In this document: positions 2 through 50,627 of the stretch, piece by piece
Position numbering within the stretch: position 1 is the stretch's first letter
Layout: every line of letters starts with the position of its first letter
Source: Malaciobacter marinus
GTDB taxonomy: Bacteria > Campylobacterota > Campylobacteria > Campylobacterales > Arcobacteraceae
DNA length: 64,000 nt
Reading direction: 5' to 3'
NCBI RefSeq assembly: GCF_003544855.1
Contig: NZ_CP032101.1
Span: forward strand, 2,480,001-2,544,000
Position numbers and translations under genes: made by a program
The notes under the pieces: generated by a model
Database searches by the model: none
What the model was told of the DNA's origin: nothing
Seen by the model: only the letters and a program-made list of their open reading frames with translations

Positions 2-316
2 ACATTACTTTCACATGGCTTTTTTATGAAAGATGGACTTATGGGTGAATTTGCAAAAAATAAAATTTCAAAAATATTAAAATTTTTAAGTGAGGAAAAT
101 AAATTTATCGATTTAGAAGTTAAAATTTTACCTCCATTAAAAATACAAAATAACTTTTTTGAAAAAAATTTAAAACCTATTATTGAGTTTATTGGAGAAG
201 AGTTTTTAAAAGAAAAGCTTTTAAAAATGTATGAAATTAAATTTCCAAAATGTAATGAAGCAAAAATAAAAGAATTAGAAAATGAAATAAAAAGATTAAA
301 AAATGCTTCAAATTAA
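2..316 (+). CDS. C-terminal part of a Septu-like AAA ATPase (PtuA-like), cut by window edge
   Basis: The reading frame is open from base 2 and has no start in the window, so this is the 3' end of a larger gene. The first residues read TLLSHGFFMKDGLMGEF, which resembles the segment after Walker B in SMC/ABC-like AAA_21 ATPases (usually TTHSPFLLSD). The C-terminal stretch IGEEFLKEKLLKMYEIKF is typical of the tail of ATPases that precede HNH nucleases in Septu-type defence pairs. The protein ends in a short coiled coil (KIKELENEIKRLK). It overlaps the HNH gene by 14 bases, so the two are translationally coupled. No Walker A is visible because it lies outside the window, so the family call rests mostly on the partner gene. 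An RloC/retron-associated ATPase is an alternative. Confidence 0.6.
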   Translation, partial: TLLSHGFFMKDGLMGEFAKNKISKILKFLSEENKFIDLEVKILPPLKIQNNFFEKNLKPIIEFIGEEFLKEKLLKMYEIKFPKCNEAKIKELENEIKRLKNASN

Positions 317-1226
317 ATTTAATAAAACACTTTTTGATACGCATATCAAAGAAATATCTAAATCAATAAAAAAGTCTATTGAAAAACAATTGATGAAAAA
401 TCTAGAGCAAAAAGAAAAAGAGTGTTTAAGTTATATAAAAGATAATTTAAAAGATATTTTAGAAGCTAATAACTCTAAAATGAAAGAATTTATAAAATAT
501 TTTAAAAACAATTTTCCTAATAGTATTGGAAAAATAAATACAAAAGAAAAAAACTGGAAAAGAATATATAAAATACTAAGAAAAGATATTTTTGAAAAAG
601 AGTATGTCAATTGGACAAAAAGAACAGAATATGGGGCATATAAATTTGTTCAAGATTTGGATTTAAAATCTTGTCCTTATTGTAATAGAAATTATACTTT
701 TGTAGTAGATGAAAAAAATGGAAAGTTAAGACCAGAGATAGACCACTTTTATCCAAAGTCAATTTATCCTTTTTTAGCAATGAGTTTTTATAATCTTATA
801 CCAAGTTGTTCTATTTGTAACCATACAAAAAAAGATAAAGTAAATTTAGACTTACTTAATCCATATGAAATAAAAGAAAATGATTTTAAACTAACTTACA
901 TACCAAATGATATTGATTTCTTTAATATAGAAAAAGAAAAATACAATTATGATAGTTTTGAAATAGATTTTGTATCAACAAATAAAAATATAGAAACATT
1001 TAAACTAAAAGAGTTATACAAACAACATAAAGATATTGTTCTAGAGCTTTTGATAAAAAAAGCTTATTATCCAAAAAGCTATATAGAAGAATTAAAAGGT
1101 TTTGACTTTAGTGAAGATGAGATTTATAGATATTTACTTGGTAATTATAAAAAAGATGAAGATTTGCACAAACGACCTCTTTCAAAACTTATAAAAGATA
1201 TTAGTGAGGAATTGGACTTGATATGA
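303..1226 (+). CDS. HNH endonuclease of a Septu-like defence pair (PtuB-like)
   Basis: The product has 307 residues. About residues 120-180 hold an HNH/zinc-finger core: CPYCNRNYTF, then RPEIDHFYPKS, then IPSCSICNHTKKDK. That gives two CxxC pairs for structural zinc and a DH plus N/H set expected for a beta-beta-alpha-metal nuclease. The N-terminal 110 residues are lysine-rich and helical. In Septu systems the ATPase partner senses phage and the HNH protein cuts nucleic acid; that role is inferred here from the overlap with the upstream ATPase. The last bases of the gene, including the TGA stop, are the first bases of the 226-bp repeat, so the C-terminus may have been trimmed or reset by the repeat. 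The start is the ATG inside the end of the ATPase gene. Confidence 0.72.
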   Translation: MLQIKFNKTLFDTHIKEISKSIKKSIEKQLMKNLEQKEKECLSYIKDNLKDILEANNSKMKEFIKYFKNNFPNSIGKINTKEKNWKRIYKILRKDIFEKEYVNWTKRTEYGAYKFVQDLDLKSCPYCNRNYTFVVDEKNGKLRPEIDHFYPKSIYPFLAMSFYNLIPSCSICNHTKKDKVNLDLLNPYEIKENDFKLTYIPNDIDFFNIEKEKYNYDSFEIDFVSTNKNIETFKLKELYKQHKDIVLELLIKKAYYPKSYIEELKGFDFSEDEIYRYLLGNYKKDEDLHKRPLSKLIKDISEELDLI

Positions 1227-35999: not shown

Positions 36000-37164
36000 A
36001 AAAGGACTACTTCTTAGTAGTCTTTTACCTATGTTTTTAAATGCAAATACAGATGAAAATATATTATCACAAGATAGGCTAAAGCAGTTTGAATTAAGTG
36101 AAAAAAAGGTAATTGAAGATAGTAGCAAGTTAAAAAAAGACTGGATTAATCCTATTACATTATCATACACAAAAATCGATGGAGAATATACAGACTCAGA
36201 AAAAAGTGTAATTAGAGTTGATCAACCAATCTTTAAAAGTGGTGGAATTTATAAAGCTATTAAATATGCCAATGCAAGTGAAAAATATTCAAATTTGGAT
36301 ATAGATGTACAAAGAAAAAATCTAATAAAAGATGCCTATGAAACTCTTTTTAATATAAATAAAATTGAGTTTGAAATAAAAAAAGCAAATTATGTTGTTA
36401 AAAATGCACAAATTGATGTAATAAGAAAAAAAGAACAAGTATTAAATGGATTTTTAGATACTTCTTTTTTAGATAATGCAATTTTAGATGCAAATACTGC
36501 TAAAAAGAATCTAATAGATTTAAAATATCAAAAAAGTGAGCTAATCAATAGTTTTAATAATCTTGCAAGTAAAGACTATAAACTTTTTTCTCTTCCTACT
36601 TTTGAGCTTGTAAGTAAAAAAAAGTTTTTAAATAAAAACCTTGAATTATCAAAGGCAAAAGCAGATATACAAACTAAATATGAATATAAAGGTATGACTT
36701 TATCTAAATATTTGCCAACAGTAAGCGCAACTTTTGATTATACAAAAAACCATAAGTTTAGTCCTACAAATACAAATATAGATGATGATTCTGTACATAA
36801 TGTAGGAATATCAATATCAATGCCACTTGATGTTAGAACATTCAATGATATAGAATCAACACAAATTGATTATTTAAAAGCTAAACTATCTTTAAAAAAT
36901 AAGATTTTAGAAGAACAAAATTTTTTCAAAACAAAACTTGAAAAGATAAAAACAATAGAGAGAAAAATAGAAATAACAAAAGATGACTATAAACTTTACA
37001 ACTCATTACTTGATACAATAGTTGAAGAAAAAAATGCTGGATTAAAAACAAAAAGTGATGTTGATACATTATTAAACTCATCTATGGTAAAAAAAATTGA
37101 ACTTAAAGTTTATGAATTAGAAAAACAAATAGAATTATTAAAACTTTATGCTAAAATAGAATAA
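35977..37164 (+). CDS. TolC-family outer-membrane efflux protein
   Basis: The product has about 395 residues, started at the ATG at 35977 (GTG at 35974 and TTG at 35983 are also possible). The signal segment is LLLSSLLPMFLNA. Two copies of the OEP pattern are seen: SVIRVDQPIFKSGGIYKAIKYA in the first half and SMPLDVRTFNDIESTQIDYL in the second, with long coiled-coil helices between. It would form the outer-membrane tunnel of an efflux or type I secretion machine; no adaptor or pump is next to it. The last 42 codons lie in the 201-bp repeat (37036-37236), and a decayed partial copy of this gene is at 43626-43861. Confidence 0.82.
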   Translation: MPLKKSLRKGLLLSSLLPMFLNANTDENILSQDRLKQFELSEKKVIEDSSKLKKDWINPITLSYTKIDGEYTDSEKSVIRVDQPIFKSGGIYKAIKYANASEKYSNLDIDVQRKNLIKDAYETLFNINKIEFEIKKANYVVKNAQIDVIRKKEQVLNGFLDTSFLDNAILDANTAKKNLIDLKYQKSELINSFNNLASKDYKLFSLPTFELVSKKKFLNKNLELSKAKADIQTKYEYKGMTLSKYLPTVSATFDYTKNHKFSPTNTNIDDDSVHNVGISISMPLDVRTFNDIESTQIDYLKAKLSLKNKILEEQNFFKTKLEKIKTIERKIEITKDDYKLYNSLLDTIVEEKNAGLKTKSDVDTLLNSSMVKKIELKVYELEKQIELLKLYAKIE

Positions 37165-37236
37165 CTATTAACGTAGGAGGATTTATGTTCAATAGTAGAT
37201 TATTATTAACTTATTGGATTATAATTCTTCCAATTA
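37036..37236 (+). repeat. 201-bp perfect direct repeat, left copy
   Basis: Bases here are identical, as far as I can read, to 43733-43933 in the same orientation (offset 6697). The unit includes the final TolC codons, the 20-base gap with its GGAGG ribosome site, and the first 17 codons of the kinase that is intact only after the right copy. It therefore marks a 6.7-kb insertion or duplication between two once-adjacent genes. Confidence 0.95.
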
Positions 37237-37406: not shown

Positions 37407-39521
37407 TCATAAAGTATCTTCTTTAGTAGCAAAATAGATCTTTAAAATTATTCCTATAAAACTAGTATAAATAAGAAATAATAAAAATATAGAAAATATA
37501 TTTCCTAATGAATATTTTAAATCAATAGAGTTAACAAGTACATAATTTTTATTTTCTTGATGCTTAATATTCTCTACTAATAAAGACATGTCTTTTAAAT
37601 CTTTAGATTTTTCAATAGGTATATTTTTTTTAAATAAATCAAGTCTAATATTCTTATATGGGACTAAAATATAATTTATTTTATATTTTTCTATAAGATT
37701 ATTTTGAACATCTTTAAAAATATACTGCAATTCTTCTTTTAATCTTTCATTAAAGTAATCTTTCTTTGATTCTGATATTTCATCATATCTATAAACAAGC
37801 ATCTTAATATTATTTTTACTTTTTGCCCATCTTTTTATTGAATCTGAAGCATCAAATCTATTCCCAAAATATAAATTATAAAAAATGTAATTTATTCTAT
37901 CAAATTCTATACCATCAAACTCTTCAAGTGATTTTTCTAAATCATTAGTTAGCTTATTAGTAACATTAGTTATTTTAAGATTCCATATTGTATTTTTATT
38001 ATAGAAACTACCGGGAACATTTTTACCTTCATCTAATAAATACCATGAAGACTCTATAAACTTATAATATTCTTCAAAAAGATTCTTATATTTGTATATC
38101 TGTTTTTTTAATAAGTCATATTTCTTTTTATCTTTTAATAAACTTATTTCTTCACATTTAGCAAATCTTTCTAGTATACTAAACTTTGTACATAAGGCAT
38201 TAAAAGACAATTTATTAACTTCAAAACTTGATGTTTTCTTTAAATCTTTGAATTTAGTAATCACTTTTGGCTGTGTATAGAAAAGCAATGTAAGTCTTTC
38301 ATCAACGGAATCAATAAAACTCTTTTCTTTTATTAAATTAAAATTTATCATTGTAAAAACACAAAGGCATATCGCAATAAAAATAAATCTACCACCAACA
38401 TATGGACTATTTGTATTAGCAAAGAATAAATTAAAATATGAATCTCTTGATGGTACATTTGTACTTATATTAAAGCTTAATTTATCTTCTTGTGATAGTT
38501 TACTTATTTTATTTAAAGATGTATTTTCTTTATTTTTTGTTTCATTCAAATCAACATCTATTTGTTTATCTTTTTCTTTTAATAATAAATTAGAAATATT
38601 GTTTTTTTCAATTTTTAAAGTTTCATTATAAGAACTCTTTTTTATAGATGATAACGTAAATTCAAAACAATCAATTAACTTAAAAATAAAAAATATTCTT
38701 TCTTCTATATCTTTTAAGTTTTCATTAATATTTTGAGAATTAATTTCTGTTTCAAATAAATCCTTTTTTATAGAAAAAATATTATAGTTTTTAAAATGTA
38801 TAATTAATTTATTAGAAAATATATTAATTTCAAATTCTTTATTCATATTTTTATTTATTAATTTAACTAAATTATCCATAACTATTGGGCTTAGGATAAA
38901 GTTTATAGTAGTTGCATCACTTCCATTTACATAAAAATTATTCATAAAATCTTTATTACTAAAATTAATTGAATTCTCAAAATATTTTGCTTTTCTTATA
39001 ATAATAAGATCATCTATAGAAAAAGGCAATCTCATAATAAAAAGAGTTCCATCAAATAATGTACTTTTATATTTATCTTTACCTATTGTTAAATGTGAAT
39101 AAGCTAATAAAGAACTAAAACCTTTATATTTAAGATCAAAAATATTATTTGAATAATATGAAAATTCTTTTTCTTTATCAAAATCAAAATCAACTAATTG
39201 AGAAAATAGTTCTTTATATTCTTCATCTTTATTATCTCTAAAAAAGCCATTAAATTTTTTTACTAAAAAGGGTTTTACTAATAGCTTACGATATTCACTA
39301 TAAAGCTTATATGTTTTACTATTAAATAATATTATAAAAGATATACCTAAAAGTAATACGCCTAGAAGTCCAATTCCTACATTATTTGCTAAGTAACTAA
39401 TAATTATCATGAAAAATGATATTGAAAATAAAAATCCTACAAACTTATCAATTATTTGATTTATTTTTAGCTTTTTTCTTAACTTTTCTAATATCACCAC
39501 TTCATCATCAAATTTTATCAT
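37407..39521 (-). CDS. DUF3137 membrane protein with an extra C-terminal half
   Basis: The 704-residue protein has two membrane helices at about 27-66 and a DUF3137-like domain to about residue 300 (FDLKYKGFSSLLAYSHL, FDGTLFIMRLPF). DUF3137 proteins are often partnered with LemA, as here with a four-base overlap. Unlike typical members of about 300-400 residues, a second half follows: a helix at about 375-395 (FIFIAICLCVFTMINFNLI), an extracytoplasmic region of about 270 residues and a last helix near 670-695 (IFSIFLLFLIYTSFIGIIL). I do not recognise this half. It is last in the island operon. Confidence 0.72.
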   Translation of the reverse strand: MIKFDDEVVILEKLRKKLKINQIIDKFVGFLFSISFFMIIISYLANNVGIGLLGVLLLGISFIILFNSKTYKLYSEYRKLLVKPFLVKKFNGFFRDNKDEEYKELFSQLVDFDFDKEKEFSYYSNNIFDLKYKGFSSLLAYSHLTIGKDKYKSTLFDGTLFIMRLPFSIDDLIIIRKAKYFENSINFSNKDFMNNFYVNGSDATTINFILSPIVMDNLVKLINKNMNKEFEINIFSNKLIIHFKNYNIFSIKKDLFETEINSQNINENLKDIEERIFFIFKLIDCFEFTLSSIKKSSYNETLKIEKNNISNLLLKEKDKQIDVDLNETKNKENTSLNKISKLSQEDKLSFNISTNVPSRDSYFNLFFANTNSPYVGGRFIFIAICLCVFTMINFNLIKEKSFIDSVDERLTLLFYTQPKVITKFKDLKKTSSFEVNKLSFNALCTKFSILERFAKCEEISLLKDKKKYDLLKKQIYKYKNLFEEYYKFIESSWYLLDEGKNVPGSFYNKNTIWNLKITNVTNKLTNDLEKSLEEFDGIEFDRINYIFYNLYFGNRFDASDSIKRWAKSKNNIKMLVYRYDEISESKKDYFNERLKEELQYIFKDVQNNLIEKYKINYILVPYKNIRLDLFKKNIPIEKSKDLKDMSLLVENIKHQENKNYVLVNSIDLKYSLGNIFSIFLLFLIYTSFIGIILKIYFATKEDTL

Positions 39522-40093
39522 AAATAGTCTTCTGCTTTTATCTCTTTCTTTTCTTCATCTTTTATCTCAAACATTGGTTTTGATTTTACTTTTAAAAAAG
39601 CATCATTTATGAATTTTCCAGGATATATTTCAATACTATTTTTTAAATATGCAATAGATTGATTATAGTTTCTTCTTGCAGCAGATATATTTCTTTCTAC
39701 TTCACTATAAGATTGTTGAGCTTCTATTAACAATTTATGAGAATATAAGTCAGGATAATTCTCCAAAGAAATATTTAATTCTTTCATCTTTAAATCTAAC
39801 TCATCTTCTAATTTAAATCTCTCTTGTATATTTTTATTATTATCATTTTCTTTGTAGTTTCTTTCAAGTTTTGTACGTATATTTGTAATATCAACTAATA
39901 CGTTCTTTTCATGGTCCATGTATTTTTTTGCAATTGTTAAAATATTTGGAATTAGGTCATACCTCTTTTTTAATTGAACATCAATATTTGCATATGCTGC
40001 ATCACCAAAATTTTTATTTGATATTATGTTAGAATAACTTCTATATAATATCAACCCTATTACAAATATAATAGTATAAAAAAACAAACTCAT
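39518..40093 (-). CDS. lemA: LemA-family protein
   Basis: The 191-residue protein has an N-terminal membrane helix (FFYTIIFVIGLILYRSY) and the LemA core: YANIDVQLKKRYDLIPNIL, then an antiparallel helix pair and YSEVERNISAARRNYNQSI, with PGKFINDAF as the usual closing motif. LemA proteins are membrane-tethered four-helix bundles of poorly known role, often with DUF3137 or TPM-domain partners. GGAG is 11 bases before the ATG. Its stop overlaps the DUF3137 gene by four bases. Confidence 0.92.
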   Translation of the reverse strand: MSLFFYTIIFVIGLILYRSYSNIISNKNFGDAAYANIDVQLKKRYDLIPNILTIAKKYMDHEKNVLVDITNIRTKLERNYKENDNNKNIQERFKLEDELDLKMKELNISLENYPDLYSHKLLIEAQQSYSEVERNISAARRNYNQSIAYLKNSIEIYPGKFINDAFLKVKSKPMFEIKDEEKKEIKAEDYL

Positions 40094-40205
40094 AATTTAC
40101 ATACTCCTTTTAAATTTATATAATATATATTATTATTTATATACTTAAAATATATAGTCATATATTCTATTTTAAATCTATTTTTTTAAATTTTCTCTTT
40201 TTCTC

Positions 40206-40844
40206 TTAATTTTTAAGTTGTTTATATAATGAAAAACTAAATATAAAGATAGTTATAAAAAATGAATGATTTATAATTTCGTTTAAATGTTTAAATATGT
40301 CAAATAAATTATTTAAGATATAAAGATTTGTATTACTCAAACTAATATAAAGACTTATAGCAAATAAAAATGGGAAACTTGATAAAATTAAAATTAAAAA
40401 ATAAATTTTTTTATTTACAAAATTAAAGTGAGTTTTAATAAAAAATCCAAGAATTAAAATAATAAAAGGTAGTTGATAAAATATATACCTTATATAAACA
40501 AATCCAAGCTGATATTCTAAATCGCTCAATTGAGTAGATAGTTCTGTCTCACTTGAATAAGTAGCAATAAGAAGGCTTATATCCATTAAAAATACTAATC
40601 CAGTAAAAATCAAAGCTATTAAAGATAAGTTACGAAATAATTTTATATTATATTGCGGTACTTTAGAAAAATAAAATATTAATAAGGCCTGAGCAATAAT
40701 CATAAAAAAAACTAAAGTCTGCAATATATAATATTTAAAATATTCTGCCAATAAAAAATGATGGAAATTATCAAGAAATATTAATCCTATAATTAAAATT
40801 GTTGAAATAATCATTACTACCATAAGTATATTTTTTACATTCAT
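40206..40844 (-). CDS. Polytopic membrane protein of unknown function
   Basis: The product has 212 residues from the ATG at 40844, which follows the stop of the upstream gene and has AGGA eight bases ahead; an ATG at 40859 inside the upstream gene is less likely. Six hydrophobic segments are visible: ILMVVMIISTILIIGLIF, YYILQTLVFFMIIAQALLIF, LIALIFTGLVFLMDISLL, YIFYQLPFIILILGFFI, IYFLILILSSFPFLFAISLY and FFITIFIFSFSLY. No family motif stands out. It lies between the Sel1/ankyrin gene and lemA on the same strand. Confidence 0.65.
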   Translation of the reverse strand: MNVKNILMVVMIISTILIIGLIFLDNFHHFLLAEYFKYYILQTLVFFMIIAQALLIFYFSKVPQYNIKLFRNLSLIALIFTGLVFLMDISLLIATYSSETELSTQLSDLEYQLGFVYIRYIFYQLPFIILILGFFIKTHFNFVNKKIYFLILILSSFPFLFAISLYISLSNTNLYILNNLFDIFKHLNEIINHSFFITIFIFSFSLYKQLKN

Positions 40845-40845
40845 T

Positions 40846-43311
40846 TTATAATCCTGCATTATTTATTTTAGATTTATTGTTATCTAATATTTTGATAAAC
40901 GATTCATTCTTCCTTAATTTAGCAACTTCTAAAGCTGTATAGCCATTATCATTTTTAATAGTAAAATCAATTTTTTTATTTATTAATCTTTTAGCAATAT
41001 CTAAAAAGATACTTTTTGATGTCTGGGAATAACGATTAACACATAAATGTAATAATGAATTATTAAACTCATCAGTAACATTAATATCTGCTCCTGCATC
41101 AATTAATCTTTTTACCATACTATATTGACCAAAGCCAAGTGCAACAAAAATAGGTTCTTTCATAATATTACTTGTTACTAAATTTAATTCAGGTTTGTAC
41201 TTTAGTAGTAAATTAAATATTTTTAAATCTTTACTAAATATAGCTCTAATTAATGGTGTTCTTCCATCTGGAGAATAATGATTAATATTTGCTCCATTTT
41301 CCAAAAGGACTTTTACTCTAATATATTTTTTATCATCAATTGCATTCATAAGCTCAGAATAACCAATTTCATCAACTTTTTCTTTTGGATTATTTTTATA
41401 TTTTCTTTTAAAGTAAATATATTTTTTTACAAATTTATTATTATAAAATCTGGATTTTGGATCTTGTGTTGAATCATAAAGATCTGAAGACTTATCTAAA
41501 TAAGGATTATTCCCTCTTATTTTATTATAATAATCAGTTACGTCTTTATCTGTAATCCCATAATAATCTACATTAGAATTATTATTTGAAATAGGTTTTT
41601 CAACTTTTTTTATAGTATTTACATTATTGATATTTGTAGTTTTTTTTAGTGTCTTATCTTTATTTAAAATACCTAGTATTTTTTTTGATGCTAGGTCTCC
41701 GTTCTCAACTCCTTTTCTAAACCATTTTTTAGCTTCTTTTATATTTTCTCTTGTTGAAGATTTAATATTATTATCAATTTTATCTAGATACATCATAGTA
41801 CTTCCTCCACTTAGAGGTAAAGTTCTTAAATAACTAGTCTGATTTATAAAATAAAGTTCACCAATATTATAAGCAAGTTCTTTACAACCTGAGAAATAAA
41901 ATCTTCTATAAGAAGCTAGTTTTTCACCAAATTCTTTTTCTGCATAAGCAAGTGAAATAGGATTAAAATTATTATTAACATCACGTATATATGCTTTTTT
42001 ATATTCTTTAATTTTGATTTTTACAGCTTCGCAATTACCATTCTCATAAGCAATATTTAACCATTTTTTAGAATTTCTTCTATCTAATTTATATAAACTA
42101 AATGGATCAAAACCTAGCTTATAAGCTTCATTAAACCAATACTCTTTTTTATTTTCTTCAGTATATGCTAATCTTATTGCAGCCATTGGATTTTCTTGAT
42201 CTACTGATTTTTTGAACCAATATATAGCTTTTTCTTTTTTGCCATGGTTAAGATAAAATAATGCTAATTCAAAAGTTGAATTAGCATCATCTCTATTTTC
42301 ATATAACAATTTTGCATGTGGGTAATTTTCTAACTCTTCATCATATCCATAAGGATATATATATAAGATAAAACCTAGTACTACTATTACTAGAAGTAGT
42401 AAGAAAGGTATTGTTTTTTTTCCATCTAATTTATATTTATTAGGTTTATTTTTAATAGTTTTTTTATCTTTTTTTTCTAAACTACTATCTTCACTTATAT
42501 TTATTTTTAAATTAAGTTTTCCTTTATATCTTCTTGGAAGTCTTGGCATTGTTAGTTGTAGTTCGTAGCCTTTTTTTATTGTTTCATCATCAATGTTAAG
42601 ATCTTCTCTTAAGATTTTTAAAACTTCATCTTTTGAATATTTTATATCAATTAATGCTATATAATAAGCACTTGCTCTTACATTATCATTTAAAATCGTA
42701 TGATAAAAAAGTGCTAAATTTTGCATAGAATCAAGATTTCCTATTTTTACTGATTCTATGAAAAACTCTTTTGCTTTATCATTATCATTTAATTTATTTT
42801 TATAAATAAGTCCTATAATATTTAGTGAATTTTCATTACCTTGCATATAAGCTTTTTCATACCATAAAATTGCTTTTTCATAATCTTTTAATATTTCTTC
42901 ATAAAATATTGCTAATTTAAAAGCATTATTATTTTCATAATATTCTAATGCTTCAGGATAATCCTTTAATCTATCATCAATAATCTCTTCTTGAGGTAAA
43001 AAAGATTTTTTTAGAAGTTCTAATTCTTCTTGCGTATTAAAAGCATAAACTTTTCTAGTAAATAACATATTAAAAATTATAAATAACATTATTATAAGTA
43101 CTGTTATTTTTAATGGAGGAGCTAAAAGATAACTTACGAAAAACAAAACAGAGACAACAATAAATATAATAGGATTTTCTTCATTGAATTTTAAATTTGG
43201 ATAGTAAGATTGTTTATTACATATTCTGCAAGTTAATATTTTTTCTTTACTACTAAAAGTATTGACATCAAAAAAAGACAGACCTTCTTCTTTACAATGT
43301 GGACATTCCAT
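40846..43311 (-). CDS. Zinc-ribbon, Sel1-repeat and ankyrin-repeat membrane protein
   Basis: This 821-residue protein has an unusual chain of modules. Residues 3-31 form a zinc ribbon (CPHC and CRIC). Two helices follow at about 45-87. Sel1-like repeats cover about 115-225 (for example AILWYEKAYMQGNENSL). A third helix lies near 305-325 (IPFLLLLVIVVLGFILYIY), then further Sel1 repeats to about 560 (KEAKKWFRKGVENGDLASK). The end holds ankyrin repeats (GRTPLIRAI, DAGADINVTDEFNNSLLHL, NGYTALEVA). The repeats suggest protein binding on both sides of the membrane. It heads an operon with a membrane protein, LemA and DUF3137. A degraded paralogue lies just upstream. Confidence 0.75.
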   Translation of the reverse strand: MECPHCKEEGLSFFDVNTFSSKEKILTCRICNKQSYYPNLKFNEENPIIFIVVSVLFFVSYLLAPPLKITVLIIMLFIIFNMLFTRKVYAFNTQEELELLKKSFLPQEEIIDDRLKDYPEALEYYENNNAFKLAIFYEEILKDYEKAILWYEKAYMQGNENSLNIIGLIYKNKLNDNDKAKEFFIESVKIGNLDSMQNLALFYHTILNDNVRASAYYIALIDIKYSKDEVLKILREDLNIDDETIKKGYELQLTMPRLPRRYKGKLNLKINISEDSSLEKKDKKTIKNKPNKYKLDGKKTIPFLLLLVIVVLGFILYIYPYGYDEELENYPHAKLLYENRDDANSTFELALFYLNHGKKEKAIYWFKKSVDQENPMAAIRLAYTEENKKEYWFNEAYKLGFDPFSLYKLDRRNSKKWLNIAYENGNCEAVKIKIKEYKKAYIRDVNNNFNPISLAYAEKEFGEKLASYRRFYFSGCKELAYNIGELYFINQTSYLRTLPLSGGSTMMYLDKIDNNIKSSTRENIKEAKKWFRKGVENGDLASKKILGILNKDKTLKKTTNINNVNTIKKVEKPISNNNSNVDYYGITDKDVTDYYNKIRGNNPYLDKSSDLYDSTQDPKSRFYNNKFVKKYIYFKRKYKNNPKEKVDEIGYSELMNAIDDKKYIRVKVLLENGANINHYSPDGRTPLIRAIFSKDLKIFNLLLKYKPELNLVTSNIMKEPIFVALGFGQYSMVKRLIDAGADINVTDEFNNSLLHLCVNRYSQTSKSIFLDIAKRLINKKIDFTIKNDNGYTALEVAKLRKNESFIKILDNNKSKINNAGL

Positions 43312-43313
43312 TA

Positions 43314-43553
43314 TTAAATCCTACCTTTATGTCTTACTGGAAACCCTGGTATCTTTAATTGTAATTCATAAATAAGCCCTGTAATATTTAGTGAGTCTTG
43401 ACTGCCTTGAGTATAGGCTTTTTCATACCATAAAATTACTTTTGTATCATTTTTATAATACTCTAATGATTTAAGGTTCTCTTCTAATCTTATATCAAAA
43501 AAAAATTTCTTAATGAAAAGATTTTTTTTACACTCATTATATTCATCACTCAT
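43314..43553 (-). pseudogene. Internally deleted Sel1-type paralogue remnant, 79 codons
   Basis: It is open with an AGGA site, but its parts match separated segments of the neighbouring gene: DIRLEENLKSLEYY resembles DDRLKDYPEALEYY, VILWYEKAYTQGSQDSLNI resembles AILWYEKAYMQGNENSLNI, and YELQLKIPGFPVRHKGRI resembles YELQLTMPRLPRRYKGKL. The repeats between these are lost. It is a decayed or minimised copy; its expression is unknown. Confidence 0.7.
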
Positions 43554-43625
43554 GATTTTCCTAATAATTTTTTCATATCATAGTTAAAAATAATTTAAAA
43601 TCTTATTATTGCAATAAGAATTATA

Positions 43626-43861
43626 GATATTTAATATAAATAAAATTGAGCTTAAAATAAAAAAACAATTTATATTGCAAAAAATACACAAATTGATATA
43701 ATTAGAAAGAACAAGTATCAAATTAATTTTTAGCTGGATTAAAAACAAAAAGTGATGTTGATACATTATTAAACTCATCTATGGTAAAAAAAATTGAACT
43801 TAAAGTTTATGAATTAGAAAAACAAATAGAATTATTAAAACTTTATGCTAAAATAGAATAA
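43626..43861 (+). pseudogene. Partial, decayed copy of the TolC-like gene
   Basis: Bases 43626-43732 resemble 36349-36457 of the TolC gene but with many substitutions and frame breaks (shared runs include TTTAATATAAATAAAATTGAG-like sequence and CACAAATTGAT). At TTTTTAG the copy jumps about 580 bases and continues as the perfect repeat, giving the last 42 TolC codons to the stop at 43861. The front is old and diverged, while the back is identical. Confidence 0.75.
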
Positions 43862-43933
43862 CTATTAACGTAGGAGGATTTATGTTCAATAGTAGATTAT
43901 TATTAACTTATTGGATTATAATTCTTCCAATTA
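43733..43933 (+). repeat. 201-bp perfect direct repeat, right copy
   Basis: Same-orientation copy of 37036-37236. It leads straight into the intact kinase gene. Beyond its ends the two copies differ: the left copy continues into CCTTAGTC and the right into TTACTATC. Confidence 0.95.
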
Positions 43934-46602: not shown

Positions 46603-46698
46603 ATTAAATTATTCTAAGTAATTAGGATAAAATAAGTTCAACAAAGTGTAAAATAAGTAGCAAAAGATACACTGTGATATTATTTTAATAAATACTTA

Positions 46699-49440
46699 TC
46701 ACCCTCTAGTAAACTCTTTGCCCTCAGTAGAATAAATAACTCTCTTTCCATATAGCTCATATTCATCTTTTTTCTCATTTGAAGGTTTATTTACAAAGTT
46801 TCCAACTTGTGAAGAGTGGTGTAAATAGTTGTTTTTTAACTCTTTATATATTTTTGTATTCTCTTTTTTTAAAACTTTGTGCTCTTTAAGTGCTTTATAT
46901 GTTTCTTTTAAAGTTTCATCATCTTTAAAACTATGATCAAATTTACCAAAAGGAACCATCTCAAACTCATCTTTTCTATTTTTTTGTGTTTTTGAATCTA
47001 CATATATAGCTTTATCATACATTAATCTCATAGCTACATGTTCATATTTATTTGATACTTTTGGTTTATACATATATAAATGTAAATGATATTCCCAATT
47101 TGAAGAGTTTCCCCAAATATCTTCTCTTGTATTTAAATTATATACATTTTTTATATAGTAATAAAAACCTTCTTTATTTTCCAATTTTTCAATATCATCT
47201 TTTAGTTTCTCTTTCTCATTTTTTGATTTATTTTCTTTTTCTAGTTCTTTTTTTAATTTCTCTATTTCACTTTCTCTTTCTTTTTGTTTTTCTTTCATTT
47301 CTTTTATTTCTTTTTTTGAATCTTTTTGTATTAATGCATTATTTTTTAACCAATTATATTTATTATTCCACTTTTGTATATTTTTTCTTAAGTAATCAGG
47401 TAGTTTTTTTTCTTCTATTATAAAATCACCAAGATAAACCAATTCATTTTCTTCATTATATCCCCCTCCTACATCTGCATGTGCTCCAGGAACATAAAAC
47501 TCTTCAAATCTTGCACCACCATCTTCTCTTTTTTCTGTACTTTCTTTATAATAGTGCTTATTTATATTTGTAAAGATAGAGTATGCTTCAAAGTTATATC
47601 TAAACTCATCATCTGCCATTAGATGAACTACATGCCCTACTTTTTTATTATTATCATTTTCAAAAAAGTTTATATTTAAATCATCAGAATCATTTGATTG
47701 CATAATTCCATAATGTGTTACTGTATCAAACAATCCTGCAAATCTAAAAGAGATTGATTCAATTGTTATCTCTTTTTCTTTATAAAAAGGATTATAAACT
47801 CTATGATTATTGTTATTTGGATTAATATACTCTATATCTGTTCTAAGTGGATTAAAAATAGTCTTACTTCCAATTCTTACATAACCATTACTTCCAAAAA
47901 ATTCATAAAAAATATCTTTACTATCTTTTGTTTTTATTGTATATTCTCTTTTTTCATTTTTTACCAATTGTGTATTTTTCAAAAGTGTACAAATAAAATG
48001 TCTTGCACTAGTAGAACCTCTACTAAATCCAAATACATCTAAAACTAGTTCATCTATATGTGTTATTGAATCTTTTCTTAATTATTCAACCATTTTTATA
48101 CAAGAGTATAAACAATGTGCTATTACTCCACTCTCTCCCATTCCAAGACCCAGTCCAACTACAGAGTCATCTTCATAATCTTTTTGTATAAAAGGATTAA
48201 AAGTTCCAGAACCACTTTCATAAAGTTTAAATCTAGTATTTGGAAGAGCATCTTTGTTTTTCTTTACATCATCTCCATCATATAATTCATATAATCTACT
48301 TATGTTTGTTTCACCATTTGTAAAGCTACTATCTTCATTATCATCTGGAAGTATTTCTTTTATTATATAATCAGAAATAGTTTTTTCTTGGGCATCTTTT
48401 TTACTATTTTTTACATCAAGTAAATAATCAAATACTTTTTTTGAATCTTTTTCTGCTTTTTTAGTAGTTATAATTTCATCATGATCTAATTTAAGAACTA
48501 ATTTACTATCAAAATATCTTATTGAAGCATTATTCATTTGATTTATAATCATTTTTTTTGTTTTTTTTGTAAACTCTGGGTTATCTATTGAAAGGATGTA
48601 TTCTTCAATTGTTCCTTGTTTTCTATCTTTTAGTTTTTCTCTGTCTTCTAATTCATCATTTCCATTTAAGCCATCTTCTATATCTTTTGCTGGCTCTTTT
48701 AAAAACTTTTTAAAGTTTTTATAAAAATCTATATTATATATATTATTATTTGTTCCATCAAAAAACACTCCATATTCGACTATTAACTCAGGCATAAATG
48801 ATGCTATTATTTTATCTTCATAAGACATTAGTTCTAACTCTTTTGTTTTAGAATCATCTTTTATATTATAAACATATGGCATAGATAGTACTATATATGC
48901 CTGTTCATCTTTATTTGGTTTTTTTGAAGTTTTATTTACTTCTTTTTTTATAATTTCATTACAACTATCTTTAGTAAAAGTCAAAGCAGAAGTACTTTTT
49001 TTTTCAAGATTTTCTTTTAGATTTTTTTGCAGTACTTTTTTATATGCATGATGATACTTTTTTGCTTTTAATACACTTCCATAAGATTTTGAGTTATACA
49101 ATTGAGAGGTACAAAGTTTTACCAATTTTTTATCAACTATTTGTTCAGTTATACCACGTAAATCATCAAAAATTAAGGGTTTATTATTTTTAGTACTCTC
49201 TTTTTCTACAGCTTTTATCAAATAAGGTTTATATTCTTCTATTACTTTATCTAAGATTATTTGTTTATCATCAGTTGAATTCAATAACTCTTTTATATCT
49301 TCATTTGATATAACCATATAAGCGATTCTAGTTTTTATATCTTCTTCTATTGCTTCATTCTCTTTGGTACAAAATTCATTTAAGTGTACTACTTCACCCT
49401 CTTTATGAAATGCATTTCCTTTAGTTATATCATTACTCAT
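46699..49440 (-). pseudogene. Tle1/DUF2235 type VI lipase effector gene, interrupted by one in-frame TAA
   Basis: Two open stretches, 49440-48082 (452 codons) and 48081-46699, are in the same frame and separated only by TAA at 48084-48082. The first has VEYGVFFDGTNNNIYN and TNISRLYELYDG, the second LVLDVFGFSRGSTSARHF with the GFSRGS nucleophile elbow, RFAGLFDTVTHYG, VHLMADDEFRYNF and PGAHADVGGGY; together these form a full DUF2235 phospholipase of about 912 residues. Termination at the TAA removes the catalytic serine and everything after it. No ATG lies between the stop and the elbow. The second open stretch read alone starts at a TTG after the elbow. A coiled region (KEMKEKQKERESEIEKLKK) is in the second part. 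The gene overlaps the Sel1 gene by eight bases. Confidence 0.82.
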
Positions 49441-50533
49441 ATGATACTCCTAAATCATTTAGTTTATTAATAGCTTTTTTATGTCCTAATTTAGCAGCTT
49501 TTTTATACCATATAATTGCATTTTTTTCATCTTTATATGTATAATTGTAAATATATCCTAAATTATTTGCAGCTTTTCCACTTCCTAATTTGTATCCTAT
49601 TTTATACCACTTTTCAGCTTTTTTATAATCTTTTAAATCTATTTGATATGTATATCCTATATCAGCTGCACATCCTGAATATTTAAATTCTTCATAACAT
49701 TTCTTATACCAATAAATTGACTTATTAAAATCTTTTAATATTGTTGCATATAAAAGACCTAATTTTTGAAGAGAACCTCTATATTGAAGTTTAACACCTT
49801 TTTTATACCACTCAATTGCTTTTTTGTAATCTTTTTCGTCTTCTTCATAATACTCTCCTATTGCTGAGGCACATTTTCCATATCCCATCTCATAACATTT
49901 TTTATAATAATTTATTCCTTTTTCTTTATCTTGCATATCTTTATTTAATTGGTAAAAAGTCCCCAGTTCATAATAACCTCTTGGCTCACCTAATTCTCCA
50001 ACTTTTTTAAAAGTACTTATTGCTTCATCATATTTTTTTTGGTCTATATACATCAGTCCAATAGAAATTAGTGAGTTAATATCACCCATTTCATATGATT
50101 TCATAAACCATTTATATGCTTCATCATATTTAAAGTTTTTATAATAATACACACCTAAATTATGTGCTGATTTTCCATGTCCTGCATTTGCTGCTACTTT
50201 AAAGTTTTTAACTGCTTTTTTATTATCATGTAAAAAACTTAAATATAGACTTCCTAATTGTGCATATGATTCTATACTTCCTTTTTCTTTTCCTTTATTA
50301 AAGTAATCTATTGCTTCATCAAAGTTACCTTGTCTTGCATAGTATATACCTGCACAACTATATCCTTGTAGTTCACCCTCTTGTATTAGTTTTTTATATT
50401 TTTTTATATCTTCTTTTGTATATTCTATTTTTATGCATTGGTTTATATCATATTCACTTTTTTTTAATTCTTGTGCATTTAATACTACTGTTGTTATACA
50501 TATTATTAGTAGGGTTTTTATTATATTTTGCAT
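49433..50533 (-). CDS. Exported Sel1-repeat protein, likely immunity protein of the Tle1-like lipase
   Basis: The 366-residue protein has a signal peptide (IIKTLLIICITTVVLNAQE) and about eight Sel1 repeats of 36 residues (for example KAVKNFKVAANAGHGKSA, KAIEWYKKGVKLQYRG and KNAIIWYKKAAKLGHKKA). It would form a periplasmic solenoid. Tle1 acts on membrane phospholipid in the periplasm, and its known immunity partners are exported proteins encoded beside it, several of them with Sel1-type repeats. The eight-base overlap with the effector gene supports that role; it has not been shown. AGGAAA precedes the ATG. Confidence 0.75.
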   Translation of the reverse strand: MQNIIKTLLIICITTVVLNAQELKKSEYDINQCIKIEYTKEDIKKYKKLIQEGELQGYSCAGIYYARQGNFDEAIDYFNKGKEKGSIESYAQLGSLYLSFLHDNKKAVKNFKVAANAGHGKSAHNLGVYYYKNFKYDEAYKWFMKSYEMGDINSLISIGLMYIDQKKYDEAISTFKKVGELGEPRGYYELGTFYQLNKDMQDKEKGINYYKKCYEMGYGKCASAIGEYYEEDEKDYKKAIEWYKKGVKLQYRGSLQKLGLLYATILKDFNKSIYWYKKCYEEFKYSGCAADIGYTYQIDLKDYKKAEKWYKIGYKLGSGKAANNLGYIYNYTYKDEKNAIIWYKKAAKLGHKKAINKLNDLGVSYE

Positions 50534-50627
50534 ACTATTTTTCCTGTTTATTTGTTTTTGTATTAATATAGTATAACATAGTAGCTAAAATAATATAATA
50601 AATTATTTATATAAAGATTTTGATTTA

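Follow-up and report, generated by a model that had tools for sequence, protein, structure and literature searches.

A putative immunity-derived module with LemA and an enlarged DUF3137 protein at a type VI secretion effector–immunity hotspot of Malaciobacter marinus

Based on the sequences analysed, we propose, with a probability of about 0.5, that a gene block of Malaciobacter marinus is a horizontally exchanged, effector-less and immunity-derived module, which is located at an effector–immunity hotspot of the type VI secretion system (T6SS) and would protect the inner membrane. The window, i.e. the whole stretch of 64,000 nucleotides that was analysed, belongs to a genome of the Arcobacter family (G000; 2.9 Mb, single contig), and positions refer to the window unless another locus is given. 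The block consists of four ORFs on the minus strand, found where the original prediction had placed them: P4 (40846–43311, 821 aa), P3 (40206–40859, 217 aa), LemA (39518–40093, 191 aa) and P1 (37407–39521, 704 aa). They are as tightly packed as expected: P4 and P3 overlap by 14 bp, LemA and P1 by 4 bp, and P3 is separated from LemA by 112 bp. In the mechanism that we favour, the Sel1 module of P4, which comes from a family presumably neutralising VasX/BTH_I2691-like effectors, probably binds incoming effectors; P4 is anchored in the inner membrane rather than by a lipid, and a second Sel1/TPR region and ankyrins are fused to the module. LemA and P1 would form a membrane complex, in which an extra domain of P1 is presumably periplasmic, and P4, LemA and P1 would together lessen or mend the harm that effectors cause at the inner membrane. 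The role would be that of an orphan or poly-immunity device, not of immunity to a self-made effector.

The four ORFs do not recur as a set. P3 is a strain-specific membrane protein with ~5–6 hydrophobic segments; no homologue is present in the sole close counterpart of the locus, that of Arcobacter sp. CECT 8985 (G081), in which a gap of 24 bp separates P4 from LemA, and no convincing one was found in 298 Campylobacterota genomes. P3 is therefore not a core member but a local addition, the core being P4, LemA and P1, and the four-gene system that had been predicted is replaced by three genes. P1 is found in 2 of the 104 genomes of the family and the P4–LemA–P1 trio in two species, so the unit is a rare and mobile one of three genes. 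Concerning co-occurrence in other genomes, the expectation of a recurring set held for one other species only, and for three genes; the expectation that the distribution would not be a housekeeping one was clearly borne out.

P4 contains, in order, a CxxC/CxxC arrangement, a TM hairpin (residues 44–91), a Sel1 module (~111–269), a TM segment (295–324), the second Sel1/TPR region and an ankyrin region (~645–815). The Sel1 module shares the motif ASAY...KGYELQL...P..(K/R)YKG with a family of proteins, to which it is mostly 37–45% identical over ~140–200 aa, and the C-terminal motif of the family is intact in it. The other members are mostly lipoproteins, whereas P4 is membrane-anchored. In most loci examined the genes of this family are located directly 3′ of those for large, related proteins (868–1320 aa), often in tandem; it is well supported that the P4 module belongs to this effector-adjacent, T6SS-linked family and has an immunity origin. 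P4 thus combines one clear Sel1 immunity module with a second Sel1/TPR region and ankyrins, in an operon with no toxin gene. By the simplest count of TM segments the first Sel1 module may lie on the cytoplasmic side, where binding to a periplasmic effector would be unusual, and the C-terminal part in the periplasm. A metal-sensing role, also proposed originally, was rejected: its basis is limited to the four cysteines and a sub-threshold match to the zinc-ribbon model TIGR04104 (19.6 bits, cut-off 45). Ankyrin proteins are also found outside this locus: one of ~645 aa lies beside a helicase-like gene (L029, L030), and proteins of about this size are present in most Arcobacteraceae genomes.

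The link of the Sel1 family with T6SS was scored in the 104 family genomes, using the sheath gene tssB for T6SS and E ≤ 1e-13 (residues ~110–290) for the Sel1 family. tssB is present in 19 genomes, the Sel1 family in 18 and both in 17, which means that T6SS occurs in 17/18 genomes with the Sel1 family vs 2/86 without it (Fisher p = 2e-16; the test ignores phylogeny). The overlap covers six genera, and in G080, the sole T6SS-negative member of its genus, a strong Sel1-family member was not found. The genome of the window contains genes for TssA, TssB, TssC, TssE, TssF, TssG, TssH, TssJ and FHA. The accessory, mobile and contact-toxin-linked character suggested for the block is thus upheld: the Sel1 family is effector-adjacent and T6SS-associated, and the locus is an effector–immunity hotspot.

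The large proteins encoded 5′ of the Sel1 genes are related to each other and carry hydrophobic segments late in the sequence. One of them matches NF041559 (BTH_I2691 family) with an E-value of 6e-7 and 28.5 bits (cut-off 150), and two gene products match VasX_N with E-values of 0.005–0.008, also below the cut-off (17.3 vs 27 bits); as neither profile is matched over its cut-off, the likeness to BTH_I2691/VasX proteins is one of similar size and late hydrophobic segments. Studied members of the BTH_I2691/VasX group act as T6SS toxins that form pores (PMC12909789). Searches of Pfam, NCBIfam and PDB gave no match to PAAR at the effector N-terminus, and the label PAAR-like, given below to a putative gene of G081, comes from inspection by eye. 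In G010 (L040, G010:C1:2006000-2022000) a single large effector is followed by a homogeneous array of at least 11 Sel1-family genes, among which lie two ORFs of ~220 aa which resemble effector tails.

Sel1 repeats are known from T6SS immunity: Sel1E neutralises VgrG4 in Klebsiella (PMC7108748), and three PldB/Tle5b immunity proteins are Sel1-repeat proteins according to the passage of PMC13133936 that cites them. As far as these accounts describe them, they share with the P4 family the Sel1 repeats, the location of the genes next to T6SS effectors and the tandem copies. P4 differs from them in being membrane-anchored, in its length of 821 aa, in its zinc-ribbon-like end and ankyrins and in having no adjoining effector gene, and the Arcobacteraceae family as a whole differs in that it follows VasX/BTH_I2691-like effectors. 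P4 therefore has the effector-adjacent family and the genomic T6SS of Sel1-type immunity proteins but not the effector gene immediately upstream. In that position only a leader of ~70 bp and a Sel1 remnant are found. The remnant is an ORF of 79 codons (43314–43553, minus strand), in which a short start like that of an effector operon leader is fused to a truncated Sel1-immunity end, with 80% DNA identity to the Sel1 part of P4. The leader- or promoter-like stretch (43537–43609, minus strand) recurs in G081 upstream of both the PAAR-like gene and P4, with matches of 81% over 73 bp (L035:5198-5270) and 89% over 63 bp (L035:10935-10997). It looks as if an effector–immunity pair had collapsed here, orphaning P4.

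Toxin-free immunity loci, and immunity domains fused to ankyrin or TPR, have been described before, in the polyimmunity survey PMC3482391. The loci described there resemble the block in the toxin-free operon, in the combination of an immunity domain with ankyrin/TPR and in the strain-variable content; the block differs from them in including LemA and DUF3137, and the text consulted contains no mention of LemA.

The block is enclosed by perfect direct repeats of 201 bp (plus strand, 37036–37236 and 43733–43933), in agreement with the repeat-bounded island described originally. Each repeat begins with the final 129 bp of the OEP gene, which a spacer separates from the initial 52 bp of a histidine-kinase gene, and the right one continues into the intact kinase gene; it is abutted by a degenerate fragment of a second OEP gene copy (43630–43733, plus strand; 84% to OEP 376–484). 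Recombination between the repeats would remove 6697 bp and restore the order OEP–histidine kinase, which is seen in G034, G059 and G060. It is very improbable that the block has an offensive or regulatory role, either as a part of effector delivery or as a sensor tied to the adjoining kinase: the block does adjoin effectors and this Cache-domain histidine kinase, but the kinase is part of the pre-insertion order in the three genomes just named and missing at the G081 locus, and neither a catalytic domain of a toxin nor one for targeting to secretion was detected.

The interval between OEP and pyk is an insertion hotspot. It is empty, with OEP followed directly by pyk, in G079, G082, G058, G065, G054, G057, G010 and G068. 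In G078 and G080 it contains a glutamate-dehydrogenase-like gene, so labelled from reading of the sequence, and in G030 a protein of 1549 aa (L071:2638-7287, reverse-complement coordinates; N-terminus MQNINWDKLQPYSGDTKKSFEELCYQ), which is possibly a defence protein. In another genus (G032 and G033; L062, L063) it holds a full-length effector of 1320 aa with its Sel1 partner. The hotspot of G081, read from pyk to OEP, contains, contiguously and on one strand, an effector–immunity array in the order PAAR-like protein (288 aa), effector-like protein (981 aa), Sel1 lipoprotein, ZnR-TM-Sel1 protein (346 aa), P4, LemA, P1 and a protein with two Sel1 regions (Sel1x2, 460 aa), so that two other Sel1 genes lie between the effector and P4.

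The P4 and P1 homologues of G081 are 88% and 91% identical to those of the window, and in P1 the identity is 100% for residues 1–382 and 81% for residues 383–704. At the DNA level the identity of the block swings between 67 and 100%: stretches of 765, 621 and 449 bp are identical, amid DNA at 67–97%, whereas the flanking genes are 85–89% identical with no identical run above 50 bp. In the same comparison dS is ~0.14–0.23 for the three shared block genes vs 0.44–0.63 for two flanking genes. The dN and dS values are 0.039 and 0.14 for P1, 0.029 and 0.23 for LemA and 0.061 and 0.15 for P4, which indicates that all three genes are maintained; none of the whole genes compared reaches a dN/dS of 1. 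The identical runs, the low dS of the block and the dN/dS values together show that functional genes were exchanged horizontally not long ago. For the variable segments (the C-terminal part of P1 and the middle of P4) positive selection was considered and rejected, as dN/dS stays below 1; their variation resembles the outcome of divergence and recombination, not of diversifying selection.

LemA, which has an N-terminal TM segment, matches PF04011 with 115 bits (cut-off 26.2) and PDB entry 2etd with an E-value of 3e-15. P1 matches PF11335 (DUF3137) with 43 bits (cut-off 26.1) in a fragment query or six-frame search; the domain was missed by hmmscan with the full-length protein and detected with the right fragment. 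P1 is composed of a DUF3137-like region (~11–265), a TM segment within 22–71, TM helices at ~372–399 and, C-terminally, ~666–699, and between these two helices the extra domain of ~270 residues. The second half (383–704, ~320 residues) matched no Pfam family. Among the PF11335 matches listed for 397 Campylobacterota genomes, the largest open frame other than P1 has 468 aa, with most at ~290–380 aa, so the enlargement of P1 (704 aa) is real and unusual. In the same 397 genomes just short and weak matches to P1 were found beyond G081, none was found in plasmids, and a P1 profile gave no match to PDB sequences. The AlphaFold2 model of P1, built from an alignment of two sequences, has a pLDDT of 31. 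Several copies of DUF3137 are found in some Campylobacterota genera, with 4–9 PF11335 matches per genome in G163, G299, G304, G296, G436 and others.

To our knowledge DUF3137 has no known function, and the same is true of the LemA–DUF3137 pair, which is widespread. The block resembles the known pair in that both domains exceed the Pfam cut-offs and the genes are adjacent (lemA adjoins the DUF3137 gene in 21/21 ordinary loci inspected), and differs from it in the size of the DUF3137 protein, in the partner P4 and in the location in a mobile island. Ordinary LemA/DUF3137 pairs elsewhere have no T6SS link, which counts against the proposed explanation and means that P1 and LemA may be passengers. 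A tentative but sizeable possibility is accordingly that P4 is an orphan immunity protein and that LemA and P1, unrelated to it in function, travel in the same island as a pair for envelope stress or membrane remodelling: many Campylobacterota have LemA–DUF3137 two-gene units but neither P4 nor T6SS, and the hotspot also accepts unrelated cargo (the histidine kinase, the glutamate-dehydrogenase-like gene and the 1549-aa protein). Against this, P4, LemA and P1 are contiguous and co-oriented in both species, the added domain of P1 is unique, and the tracts of identical DNA cover parts of all three genes. The more specific proposal that LemA and DUF3137 form, with P4 as an adaptor, a shield or repair complex of the inner membrane against pore-forming T6SS effectors, with an exchangeable C-terminal domain of P1, we regard as doubtful.

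Accessory, non-cognate pathways protect Pseudomonas from a BTH_I2691 toxin and from Tle3 (PMC8926400). The block could act in a comparable way, mitigating damage by bringing membrane potential or the balance of lipids back to normal, with Sel1 reused merely as a scaffold; we consider this improbable. In its favour, the proteins by which Arc2 counters the BTH_I2691-family toxin and Arc3 counters Tle3 have no relation to cognate immunity (PMC8926400), and LemA and P1 are membrane proteins. The Arc clusters of Pseudomonas aeruginosa (PMC8926400) also share with the role proposed here a membrane-associated defence against T6SS toxins. They are, however, Gac/Rsm-regulated pathways with no domains found in common with the block: Pfam scans of the block proteins gave neither the MoxR and VWA domains nor the DUF2339 that mark Arc2/Arc3, nor any lipid-metabolism domain. 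The intact C-terminal motif of the P4 Sel1 module also argues against a mere scaffold.

Two further suggestions of the original prediction are not supported. Concerning anti-phage defence, PADLOC gave only similarity to repeats, namely ankyrin (PDC-M72A, P4) and TPR/Sel1 (the neighbour of Tle1), and nothing beyond them. Concerning protection from lipases, a Tle1-like T6SS phospholipase (PF09994; 46699–49440, minus strand, two ORFs through an in-frame stop) and a Sel1 protein (366 aa; 49433–50533, minus strand) lie in the same hotspot outside the module; because the P4 Sel1 family adjoins VasX/BTH_I2691-like effectors, while a separate Sel1 partner accompanies Tle1, Tle1 is not favoured as the target. 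The Tle1–Sel1 pair is duplicated in the genome (window 46689–50614 and G000:C1:407301-411226, L089; 3926 bp, 99.6% identity). Tle1 consists of the same two ORFs through the stop codon in both copies, and in the window copy the lipase motif GFSRGS falls between the ORFs. Elsewhere in the window, an ORF at 303–1226 (plus strand) has the pattern CPYCN...DHFYPKS...CSICNHTKKD, which resembles that of HNH endonucleases from defence systems.

A limited literature search gave no published description of the effector–Sel1 families, the OEP–pyk hotspot or an orphan-immunity locus with LemA–DUF3137. The occurrence of LemA–DUF3137 beside an immunity-derived protein in a T6SS hotspot leads to the testable idea of inner-membrane protection from injected pore-formers. 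If true, the shield complex would give DUF3137 a function that can be assigned for the first time, and defence against contact toxins a new architecture. The effector–Sel1 families and the OEP–pyk hotspot are also useful for mapping how Arcobacteraceae wage T6SS warfare.
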